From Tsuneonella suprasediminis (GTDB lineage: Bacteria; Pseudomonadota; Alphaproteobacteria; Sphingomonadales; Sphingomonadaceae): 64,000 bases of DNA. Below are positions 34,465-59,992 of this stretch, one piece after another (within the stretch, counting starts at the first letter, position 1; each line of letters starts with the position of its first letter). The stretch lies in the NCBI RefSeq assembly GCF_003605755.1, contig NZ_RAHJ01000019.1, positions 1-64,000 on the forward strand. Direction: 5' to 3'. The notes under the pieces were generated by a model, which saw nothing but the letters and a program-made list of their open reading frames with translations, was not told the DNA's origin and ran no database searches. The position numbers and the translations under genes were made by a program.

Positions 34465-34504
34465 GAGAGGGACACTCTGTCGTATAGACCGACGTGTCCC
34501 TCTC
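34465..34504. terminator. Bidirectional hairpin terminator
   Basis: GAGAGGGACAC (34465-34475) pairs perfectly with GTGTCCCTCTC (34494-34504) around an 18-base loop. It lies between two convergent genes (DUF2794 and an SDR). Confidence 0.7.
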
Positions 34505-34543
34505 TCTATTCATGACAGGGATTGAAGGCTGATTGTTCAGGGA

Positions 34544-49183: not shown

Positions 49184-49813
49184 TCAGTCGATCTTGGGCG
49201 TCATACCCGGTTCGCATCTGGCCATCGCCCGTTGATATGCCGGACGCTGTGCGATGCGCTGAAGGTAAGCCTTGATATTGGGATACCCATCGAGAGAGGT
49301 GTCCCCGAACATCCGCGAAGTGGTGAGGTTGAAGCCCATCATAATGTCAGCGGTGGTCAGCTGCGACCCGCCAAAGAATTCCGCCTCGCCCAGCCGTGCC
49401 TCCGCCAGCGCCCATGCCTTGGCCACTCGATCGCTCACGAATTCGGGCGTTGGCCCGCCCATTTGTGCCGCGACCAGCGCCATCATGCCGTTGGTCATGA
49501 AAGTGGCGTTGGCGAAGTGGAACCAGAACAGATGCCCGGCGAAATCGGCGCTGTCCGGCCCCGGCGATAACTTCGCCCCGCCATATTTGCGGTCGATATA
49601 TTCGCAGATCGCCCCGCTTTCACCCAGAACCAGATCGCCATCGGTAATGACCGGAGCAATGCCCATCGGGTGCAGCGCCTTGTATTCCGGCGGGGCAAAA
49701 TTGTTGTCCGACCTGCGGATATAGATCTTCAGCTTGTAGTCGAGCCCAAGCTCTTCGCACAGCCAGACGATACGCTCTGACTGCGATATCCGCAGGTGGT
49801 GGACGGTCAGCAT
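49184..49813 (-). CDS. Glutathione S-transferase family protein
   Basis: A 209-residue protein with the GST layout: thioredoxin-fold N-domain (LTVHHLRISQSERIVWLCEE, then MGIAPVITDGDLVLGESGAI with the glutathione gamma-Glu contact ES) and an all-helical C-domain (LTTADIMMGFNLTTSRMFG). The N-terminal His/Ser pattern (HLRISQS) suggests the beta- or xi-like bacterial type with Ser as active residue; substrate unknown. It is 64 bases upstream, on the leftward strand, from nothing obvious and convergent with the CPBP gene. Confidence 0.9.
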   Translation of the reverse strand: MLTVHHLRISQSERIVWLCEELGLDYKLKIYIRRSDNNFAPPEYKALHPMGIAPVITDGDLVLGESGAICEYIDRKYGGAKLSPGPDSADFAGHLFWFHFANATFMTNGMMALVAAQMGGPTPEFVSDRVAKAWALAEARLGEAEFFGGSQLTTADIMMGFNLTTSRMFGDTSLDGYPNIKAYLQRIAQRPAYQRAMARCEPGMTPKID

Positions 49814-49877
49814 GGTTTAATCTCCTCGATTGCCAGGCAGAGTTGGAGGCAATCGAGGAGAAGTCCAGCGCAAACGC

Positions 49878-50474
49878 TTACAACTCAGCAATCTGCTCTT
49901 TCGCGGACGCGAGGCCTTGTTCCACCGCTTCCGGGCCGAAACCGGCGTTGTTGACTGTCACGAAATGGAGGTCGGTGACGCCGATAAAGCCGAAGAAATC
50001 GCGCAGCAGGGTTTCCTGATGTTCGGCAGTGCCGCCCAGTTCGTAGGAGCCGCCACGGCTGGACGCGATCACGACTTTGCGGCCACCGGCCAGCCCTTCG
50101 ACACCGTTTTCGCCATAGCGGAAGGTGAGGCGAGGCACACCAAGACGGTCGATCCATGATTTGAGCTGGCTGGGGATCGTGAAATTGTACATCGGCGCGC
50201 CGACGATCACGATATCGGACGCGAGAAATTCGTCGAGCACCGCGCGTTCTTCCGCGAACACGCTTTTCATTGCCGGGGTGTGCGTGTCTTCCGGCTGGCG
50301 GATCGCGCCGGTTCGCGCATCGTCGATATGCGGCAGCGGATCGGCCACCAGATCGCGCGTAACCAGTGTGGCGTTGGGATATTTCGCGGTGAAATGATCG
50401 GTCAGCGCCTGGGTCACCTGGCGGCTGATCGAATTTGCGCCAGTGGATGCGCTGTCGATTCGGAGGATTTGCAT
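49878..50474 (-). CDS. azoR: FMN-dependent NADH-azoreductase
   Basis: A 198-residue flavodoxin-fold quinone/azo reductase. The N-terminus [20 protein letters not shown] is the FMN phosphate site, [20 protein letters not shown] binds the isoalloxazine, and [18 protein letters not shown] is the second FMN loop. These enzymes reduce quinones and azo compounds with two electrons and protect from thiol stress. It diverges from an HxlR regulator with 40 bases between, an arrangement often met for azoreductases. Confidence 0.92.
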   Translation of the reverse strand: [198 protein letters not shown]

Positions 50475-58486: not shown

Positions 58487-59992
58487 ATGACCGAACTCAC
58501 GCTTTTCAACAGCCTGACCCGCAGCCTTGAACCGTTCGTGCCCGTGCATCCGGGCGAAGCGCGCGTGTATTCCTGCGGTCCGACGGTCTATAACTATCCT
58601 CATATCGGCAATATGCGCGCCTATGTGTTTGCCGACGTGCTCGGTCGCACACTGAGCTGGAAGGGGTACAAGCTCACCCACGTTATCAACATCACCGATG
58701 TCGGCCATCTGACCGACGATGCCGATGCGGGTGAGGATAAGCTGGAAAAGGCCGCCGCGCAGCGCGCTCAGTCGATCTGGGACATCGCGAAGCACTACAC
58801 AGAGGCCTATTGGGCGGATATCAAAGCGCTCAACATCCGGCAGCCGGCGCACTGGTCGATCGCCACCGACTATATCGATGCGATGATCGAGTTTGCCGAG
58901 AGCATTGCAGCAGAACACTGCTATGAACTCGACAGCGGGCTCTATTTCGATGTCTCGACAGTGGCGGACTATGGCCGGCTGGCGCGTGCCGTTACCGAGG
59001 AAGGCGAAGGCCGCATCGAAGCGGTCGATGGCAAGCGGAACGCCGCCGACTTCGCGATCTGGCGCAAGACTCCGCCGGGTGAAAAGCGGCAGATGGAATG
59101 GGATAGCCCGTGGGGTCGTGGCGCGCCGGGCTGGCATCTCGAATGCTCTGTGATGAGTGGGAAGTTGCTGGGCTTCCCGTTCGATATTCACACTGGCGGG
59201 ATCGATCACCGCGAAATCCACCATGCCAACGAGATCGCCCAAAATCAGGCATTCTGCGGTTGTGGCAGCCTTTCCACGGCGACCAATTCGGGCGCCAAGA
59301 TCTGGATGCACAACAACTTCCTCGTCGAACGCAGCGGCAAGATGAGCAAGTCGAGCGGGGAATTCCTGCGGCTCCAGTTGCTGATCGACAAAGGATATCA
59401 TCCGCTCGCCTATCGCCTGATGTGCCTGCAGGCGCATTATCGCAGCGAGCTGGAGTTTTCGTGGGAAGGGCTGGGCGCGGCTCTGACCCGGCTGAAACGT
59501 ATGCTGATGGCTGCTGAAAAGCTCAGCGAAGTGGCGAGTCCTCGCGAAGGCGGGGACCTCAGGCAGCAAGGTGCCGAAGGTGCGGATACGGCCCCGCTTT
59601 CGCGCGATCGCCTGCATCCCAAATTCGTTCCGATGCTCGAAAAATTCGATGCTGCCATGTCGGACGATCTCAACACTGCCGTGGCTCTGACGGCGCTTGA
59701 AGATGCGCTGGCGGTGAAGAAAGTCGATCTGGCTGCCAAACGGGCGGTGATCGCTGAAATGGATGCAGTGCTAGGCCTCAACCTGTTCGGCCTGACGCGT
59801 GCCGACCTCCGCATCCGTCCCAAAGATGCAACCATCACCGAGGCAGAGATCGAGGACGAACTCGTTCGCCGTAAGGCTGCACGGGCAGACAAGGATTTCG
59901 CCACCTCCGATGCGATCCGCGACGAGCTCGCCGGGAAGGGGGTGGAGGTGATGGATGGCGATCCGTTAGGGTGGGAGTGGAAATTGGCATGA
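58487..59992 (+). CDS. cysS: Cysteinyl-tRNA synthetase
   Basis: CysS charges tRNA-Cys. The 501-residue enzyme starts at 58487 (MTELTLFNSLTRSLEPFVPV) and has zinc Cys30 in VYSCGPTVYNY, the HIGN motif right after, NITDVGHLTDDADAGEDKLE, the second zinc site around WHLECSVMSG and GGIDHREIHHANEIAQ, and KMSKS (285-289). The anticodon-side helical part carries an unusual insertion at about residues 353-373, encoded by a palindromic repeat (59543-59604). The longer in-frame start at 58370 overlaps the nitroreductase gene and is rejected. The stop overlaps the next gene. Confidence 0.96.
   Translation: MTELTLFNSLTRSLEPFVPVHPGEARVYSCGPTVYNYPHIGNMRAYVFADVLGRTLSWKGYKLTHVINITDVGHLTDDADAGEDKLEKAAAQRAQSIWDIAKHYTEAYWADIKALNIRQPAHWSIATDYIDAMIEFAESIAAEHCYELDSGLYFDVSTVADYGRLARAVTEEGEGRIEAVDGKRNAADFAIWRKTPPGEKRQMEWDSPWGRGAPGWHLECSVMSGKLLGFPFDIHTGGIDHREIHHANEIAQNQAFCGCGSLSTATNSGAKIWMHNNFLVERSGKMSKSSGEFLRLQLLIDKGYHPLAYRLMCLQAHYRSELEFSWEGLGAALTRLKRMLMAAEKLSEVASPREGGDLRQQGAEGADTAPLSRDRLHPKFVPMLEKFDAAMSDDLNTAVALTALEDALAVKKVDLAAKRAVIAEMDAVLGLNLFGLTRADLRIRPKDATITEAEIEDELVRRKAARADKDFATSDAIRDELAGKGVEVMDGDPLGWEWKLA
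59543..59604 (+). repeat. Palindromic repeat inserted in frame in cysS
   Basis: CGCGAAGGCGGGG (59543-59555) pairs with CCCCGCTTTCGCG (59592-59604); twelve of thirteen positions match. The element encodes a Gly/Gln/Ala/Asp-rich stretch (REGGDLRQQGAEGADTAPLS) that lies between the catalytic part and the C-terminal helices, where a flexible loop is tolerated. It resembles intergenic repeats with a CGCGAAGGCGGGG core that I recall from sphingomonads, and the in-frame palindromic elements known in Rickettsia. Confidence 0.65.

Follow-up and report, generated by a model that had tools for sequence, protein, structure and literature searches.

The closest described relatives of the element analysed here are the CGTC REPs, for which there is apparently no dedicated transposase (Di Nocera, De Gregorio and Rocco 2013, PMC3733652). 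According to the main-text parts of that paper, REPs are found in recB of two Xanthomonas species at about one site, and X. oryzae, 'E. lithoralis', and S. alaskensis have in-frame REPs in genes for tRNA synthetases, which are left unnamed. The same source equates RPE-4 and RPE-6 with the CGTC-4 and CGTC-1 repeats. Thus, in-frame REPs in sphingomonad tRNA synthetase genes have been known since 2013, and the novelty that the earlier note attached to such a case does not hold. As described there, CGTC-1 REPs share several properties with the present element: an 8-bp stem, a 4-nt loop, the arrangement as inverted dimers, occurrence in Alphaproteobacteria, and occasional in-frame location in genes.

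The element also resembles the RPEs of Rickettsia, as had been supposed. It is palindromic, in frame in a housekeeping gene, and probably translated, and stop-free in-frame insertions were found in both cysS and glyS of this genome. The likeness is one of behaviour. RPEs occur in many copies per genome, whereas here the two dimers that were found are each in a gene for a tRNA synthetase. RAYT-mobilised GTAG REPs are likewise short hairpins in inverted dimers. However, no GTAG tag was seen in the present element, and a search of this genome with the RAYT model NF047646 gave no match. RAYT was rejected as the mobiliser on this ground and because matches are few in the family (20 of 119 genomes, one of them over the cut-off).

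The window, i.e., the whole stretch of 64,000 nucleotides of Tsuneonella suprasediminis DNA that was analysed, contains the cysS gene (Table 1). Pfam assigned residues 17-331 of the product to the class I catalytic domain PF01406 (E 1e-79), and the solved CysRS structures 3sp1 (E 1.8e-82) and 1li5 (E 3e-69) matched it. A DALR_2 match at residues 386-407 is sub-threshold (20.1 bits vs a cut-off of 22). The insert is located after PF01406 and before this sub-threshold match. In an AlphaFold model made with 30 sequences, whose confidence is low overall (mean pLDDT 62.1), residues 351-370 have a pLDDT below 50 and lie between the helices 326-350 and 378-392.

Table 1. Features of the cysS locus and of the linkers compared with it. 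Positions without a handle are those of the window; G, C, and L numbers are handles for genomes, contigs, and loci.
Feature	Position, locus or genome	Strand	Basis or count
cysS, cysteinyl-tRNA synthetase, 501 aa	58487..59992	+	ORF; PF01406; solved CysRS matches
Expanded CysS linker, residues 346-374 (LSEVASPREGGDLRQQGAEGADTAPLSRD)	59522..59608	+	87 nt, multiple of 3, stop-free
Left REP-like unit	59538..59557	+	8-bp stem (7 Watson-Crick + 1 G-U), GAAG loop; 19/20 to family consensus
Spacer separating left and right units	59558..59589	+	By position
Right unit, inverted, decayed, core 59592-59604	59590..59609	-	15/20 to consensus; more than 3 mismatches
Best-preserved repeat dimer in the genome, in frame in glyS	G000:C18:424440-424516 (L022:1441-1517)		20-mer search
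CysS linkers with HAELVSAS...WTLKQVQG	L056 (Erythrobacter colymbi), L098 (E. oryzae), L079, L107, L108, L132, L372, L378, L379, L381, L382		
glyS type C (CCNGCGAANGCNGG, CGTC-like)			29/62 long linkers
glyS type S (CTCCCC..GGGGAG)			17/62 long linkers
glyS type E (CCTCCCC..GGGGAGG form, perhaps kin of S)			5/62 long linkers
glyS type P (CTGAGCYTGTCGAAG)			5/62 long linkers
glyS type V (GTCGAGCGNAGTCGAG)			4/62 long linkers
glyS type B			1/62 long linkers
glyS, other			1/62 long linkers
glyS linkers with tRNA ends	L202 (G043), L231 (G028); L395:1449-1525, L397:1449-1525		
Named genomes with long glyS linkers	Citromicrobium bathyomarinum, Novosphingobium colocasiae, Alteraurantiacibacter aquimixticola, Erythrobacter oryzae, Pelagerythrobacter marinus, Qipengyuania algicida, N. 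naphthalenivorans		

Is the long linker common among the relatives? The CysS loop was compared across the family. The linker has 29 residues here vs 8 in the nearest relatives, a net gain of 21 residues over the 24-nt state, in agreement with the previously suggested figure of about 21. A loop of equal length is not present in most relatives; 78 of the 110 family CysS loci have linkers of 24-30 nt. The 110 loci include the window's own gene and seven duplicates, which leaves 103 distinct rows, 72 of them short. In the CysS tree, which was built without genus-mates of this genome, the nearest rows by path (L118, L026, L113, L096, and L119) all have 24-nt linkers, and no starred branch is adjacent to the row of the window. 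As far as alignment and tree can tell, the palindrome in the CysS linker is a lineage-specific gain, and the proposal of an in-frame insertion at this point was borne out.

In 127 CysS loci, i.e., the 110 loci plus 17 readable ones among 20 chosen mostly for long linkers, every linker is a multiple of three and lacks a stop codon. The same is true for all 130 GlyS linkers. This constancy speaks for translation. That the insert might be excised post-transcriptionally or skipped by the ribosome is hardly credible: nothing was found in favour of it, and removal would not require the frame that is unbroken and stop-free in every one of these glyS and cysS linkers.

The palindrome consists of a 13-base inverted repeat, CGCGAAGGCGGGG, at 59543-59555 and its complement at 59592-59604, with 12 of 13 positions matching, exactly as first reported. 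The stem arms of the left unit are GTCCTCGC and GCGGGGAC, with GAAG as the loop. Could it have arisen by chance in a low-complexity loop that is expanded in the ordinary way? The palindrome by itself is only modestly unusual. Its score (for the 88-nt stretch of cysS that contains it) was equalled by 7 of 1000 dinucleotide shuffles; 33 of 2906 window steps of 88 nt scored at least as high, which is the point in favour of chance. Nor is the window enriched in the 13-mer when up to two mismatches are allowed (8 seen vs 7.22 expected). However, positions 59536-59564 are identical at 28 of 29 nt to the glyS palindrome of another family genome (G102), and a 20-mer search described below gave no control match. 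Chance was rejected for these two reasons and is very improbable. It is thus the sequence kinship (19/20 for the 20-mer and 28/29 nt), not the strength of the palindrome, that identifies the cysS palindrome as a member of a repeat family.

Two other hairpins were noticed in the window. A strong one, GAGAGGGACAC...GTGTCCCTCTC, at about 34466-34505 is perhaps a terminator. The strongest inverted repeat of the window scan, CTCCTCGATTGCC...GGCAATCGAGGAG at 49809-49870, is located between two minus-strand frames, one ending at 49813 and the other beginning at 49878.

The genome was searched for further copies with the 20-mer GTCCCCGCGAAGGCGGGGAC. Allowing up to three mismatches, three matches were found in the 3.30-Mb, 22-contig assembly, while the reversed control had none. 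One is the left arm in cysS (59538), and the other two (C18:424444 and C18:424494) are both arms of a better-preserved in-frame dimer in glyS, the gene of the glycyl-tRNA synthetase beta subunit. This dimer encodes the peptide PSSREGGDRGQPGAPSPEAPAFAGTRE. Thus, the copy number is low, with all three units in cysS and glyS, and no intergenic copy was found within three mismatches of the 20-mer in this assembly. A looser 14-mer with two mismatches gave 139 matches vs 94 in the reversed control. Two 13-mers, isolated and lacking a partner arm, were also seen elsewhere, so that decayed remnants may have gone undetected in the rest of the genome.

In the family, the 17-mer core of the repeat was found in 31 of 199 genomes, with no control match among the rows listed. 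The 46 loci inspected comprise two subtypes, CGTC-AT...ACC-CA, which has the published CGTC tag and tail, and YGA-GT...ACC-TC, to which the copy in the window belongs. The bases before its left stem are GCGA (59534-59537), and its kin with YGA include those of G016 and G160, while copies in G072, G140, and G134 have the canonical CGTC tag. The cysS copy has no unpaired CGTC, TGTC or CCTC end tag and no short CCA-type tail, and CTC follows its left stem. The cysS element and its near kin therefore differ from CGTC REPs in being bordered by YGA...CTC instead of CGTC...CCA; the stem and the loop of the left unit are within the range of CGTC REPs (8-9 bp and 4-5 nt).

Like REPs in general, the element occurs in related genomes as a repeat that is mainly intergenic and often in inverted dimers. 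In five repeat-rich genomes, 12 of 20 dimers are covered by an open frame of ≥150 aa. Eight of those 12 frames or sets of frames do not have their highest G+C content at the third codon position. Among the remaining four, the G+C order of three differs from that of ordinary genes, and one has the repeat upstream of the likely start. Judging from codon-position G+C and location, the dimers in the repeat-rich relatives look intergenic. In 26 further loci (one per genome), one copy is clearly genic, and it is in glyS (L298). In G100, both of the 17-mer matches are the arms of a glyS dimer, as are two of the three in G102. The earlier idea that intergenic repeats of this lineage also spread into genes is not supported as worded for this genome itself; intergenic copies were seen in the relatives.

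An alternative is that the cysS allele was imported with its repeat from a repeat-rich relative, the insertion having occurred elsewhere. The CysS proteins of three genomes with the same genus code are 69-70% identical to the present one, while that of G004, from another genus, is 86% identical to it, and the recipient has no intergenic copies within three mismatches. However, the same repeat was found in none of the 127 CysS loci compared, so that no donor is seen. Furthermore, glyS, which also has a copy, looks vertically inherited; its N-side flank is 92-93% identical to those of genus-mates. I regard the import as unlikely. Apart from the repeat, the identity pattern of CysS may reflect a replacement of cysS in one lineage.

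The preferred reading, with a probability of roughly 0.8, is that a REP-like dimer was inserted in frame in the CysS linker and is translated as a tolerated flexible loop, the dimer being a non-autonomous sibling of the CGTC REPs. By comparison of sequences, its identity with the repeat family, the maintained frame, the lineage-specific gain, the second copy in glyS, and the other palindromes in both linkers elsewhere are well established. The dimer would be about 70 nt long and consist of two short, mutually inverted hairpin units of the YGA...CTC border subtype. It would have been gained in the lineage of this genome, in the linker that joins the catalytic domain and the C-terminal helices, perhaps through mobilisation in trans or else through template switching at hairpins. 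The product would be a flexible loop rich in Gly, Asp, Gln, and Ala, tolerated owing to the exposed position of the linker and the intact frame, and the insertion would have been neutral. The cysS copy is decaying, as seen in its right unit, yet the frame is kept. Copies in essential genes may outlast intergenic ones, since an out-of-frame deletion would be lethal there; loss of the intergenic copies with retention of those in essential genes would explain the odd distribution in this genome.

Of the 196 family genomes that gave a glyS match, 130 had their linker read; they were picked by match score and thus not at random. As for length, 52 linkers have up to 54 nt, 16 have 60-78 nt, and 62 have 105-192 nt. 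The long linkers contain at least four unlike palindrome families (Table 1), the types being set by patterns and in part by hand assignment. In 23 named genomes, glyS linkers are 42-48 nt outside the seven long ones, except for Blastomonas marina (72 nt). In the 37 genus codes with at least two genomes read, eight have only short linkers, 26 have mixed states, and three have one common non-empty state. In the rest of the class, glyS linkers of 33-66 nt were found in the 27 loci that scored best, and the solved beta subunit 7yse has 7 residues vs 38 in the GlyS of this genome. Thus, within this sample, the ancestral state was probably the short linker, the long one being peculiar to the family. 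Four genomes of different genus codes (L170, L182, L207, and L238) share a common 24-residue glyS linker without a clear palindrome, which starts with valine or isoleucine, VKP and ends with an N-rich segment.

The right flank of the palindrome is LAxxAE or close to it in all 62 long linkers, whatever the palindrome family, and in 9 of 16 intermediate and none of the 52 short ones. This is best explained by common descent of a long glyS allele in which palindromes were exchanged; convergent lengthening of the next helix is a possible alternative. The left core of the C-type palindromes was found in the PAKAG frame 20 times, in the REGG frame five times, and never in the arginine-rich third frame (n=25), and the right core was found in all three frames (16, 8, and 5; n=29). 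A frame difference between two type A linkers (L166 and L184) was considered as proof of independent insertion and rejected; the two agree in frame and spacer letters over their right halves, and compensating small shifts would also explain it. The GlyS tree is too weak to choose between descent and convergence or to count insertions, as 20 of its 127 inner branches are starred. It has 61 state changes vs 69.2 on average after shuffling (1 of 200 shuffles reached so low a value), and for the empty state 24 changes vs 41.0, of which at least six are forced by starred branches.

Are the hairpins kept for a function? An mRNA structure between the domains might slow the ribosome or regulate stability, and any palindrome family might do. 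The RNA folds are indeed far beyond those of shuffles. The cysS stretch folds at -48 kcal/mol with z -3.83 (0 of 200 shuffles as good) and the glyS dimer with z -6.47; the third sequence folded was an arbitrary stretch of cysS from another genome and does not serve as a matched control for the linkers. The best inverted repeat exceeds all 40 shuffles in 50 of the 62 long glyS linkers, despite the unlike sequences. The arms are often nearly perfect in the relatives, e.g., 25/25 and 30/30, which should be more than expected for old neutral fossils unless they are young or selected. The near-perfect arms thus point to recent exchange or selection on the hairpin. On the other hand, REPs fold well anywhere, and linkers are short in 52 of 130 glyS and 78 of 110 CysS loci, frequently alongside occupied ones within one genus. 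In addition, most of the pairing is gone from the cysS copy and, by the shuffle test, from 12 of 62 glyS copies, which persist nonetheless. Retention for such a function is therefore quite improbable.

Some glyS linkers contain tRNA sequences. In one genome (G043), 25 nt of the linker are identical to the 3′ end, CCA included, of its own tRNA-Arg(ccg) gene. In another (G028), 30 nt are identical to its own tRNA-Arg(cct), stopping one base short of the 3′ end, and a V-type palindrome follows. A loose T-arm scan was discarded; it matched 4 of 78 non-empty and 0 of 52 empty linkers, with a background of 33 forward and 34 reverse matches in 250 kb from these loci. Thus, exact tRNA matches alone were relied on. 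L219, L180, and L412 (N. naphthalenivorans) look similar and are candidates by resemblance; the tRNA-like pattern of L219 matched the glyS copy alone and no source tRNA gene.

A different palindrome, translated as RHAELVSAS...WTLKQVQG, was found in 11 CysS linkers of other Erythrobacteraceae, six in the set of 110 loci and five in the 17 chosen ones. At least four changes of this state in the CysS tree are supported by starred branches. This palindrome (type B) was rejected as the source of the insert in the window; it has no match within three mismatches in this genome. Several CysS linkers of 69-81 nt keep letters like GGWT... without a palindrome, and these may be old remains.

It is proposed, at even odds, that the glyS linker is a landing pad in Sphingomonadaceae (in the sense of GTDB), where hairpin-forming DNA of at least four unlike palindrome families and, in some genomes, tRNA 3′ ends were captured in frame and replaced one another on the derived LAxxAE scaffold; related species would therefore differ in the element that they have at this site. 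The cysS linker would be a lesser second pad, and the pads would preserve repeats lost elsewhere in the genome. The glyS hotspot is apparently new. No repeat hotspot in glyS or cysS was found in the full-text literature, whose coverage leaves subscription journals mostly outside, and the main-text parts of PMC3733652 do not describe a single gene site that is occupied by unlike repeats in different members of a family. One site with several palindrome families, and with empty alleles in the same genus, provides before/after pairs from which the mechanism that moves short non-autonomous palindromes like the CGTC REPs, any target preference, and any cost to the protein can be read. The repeats would also supply new peptide segments to essential enzymes.
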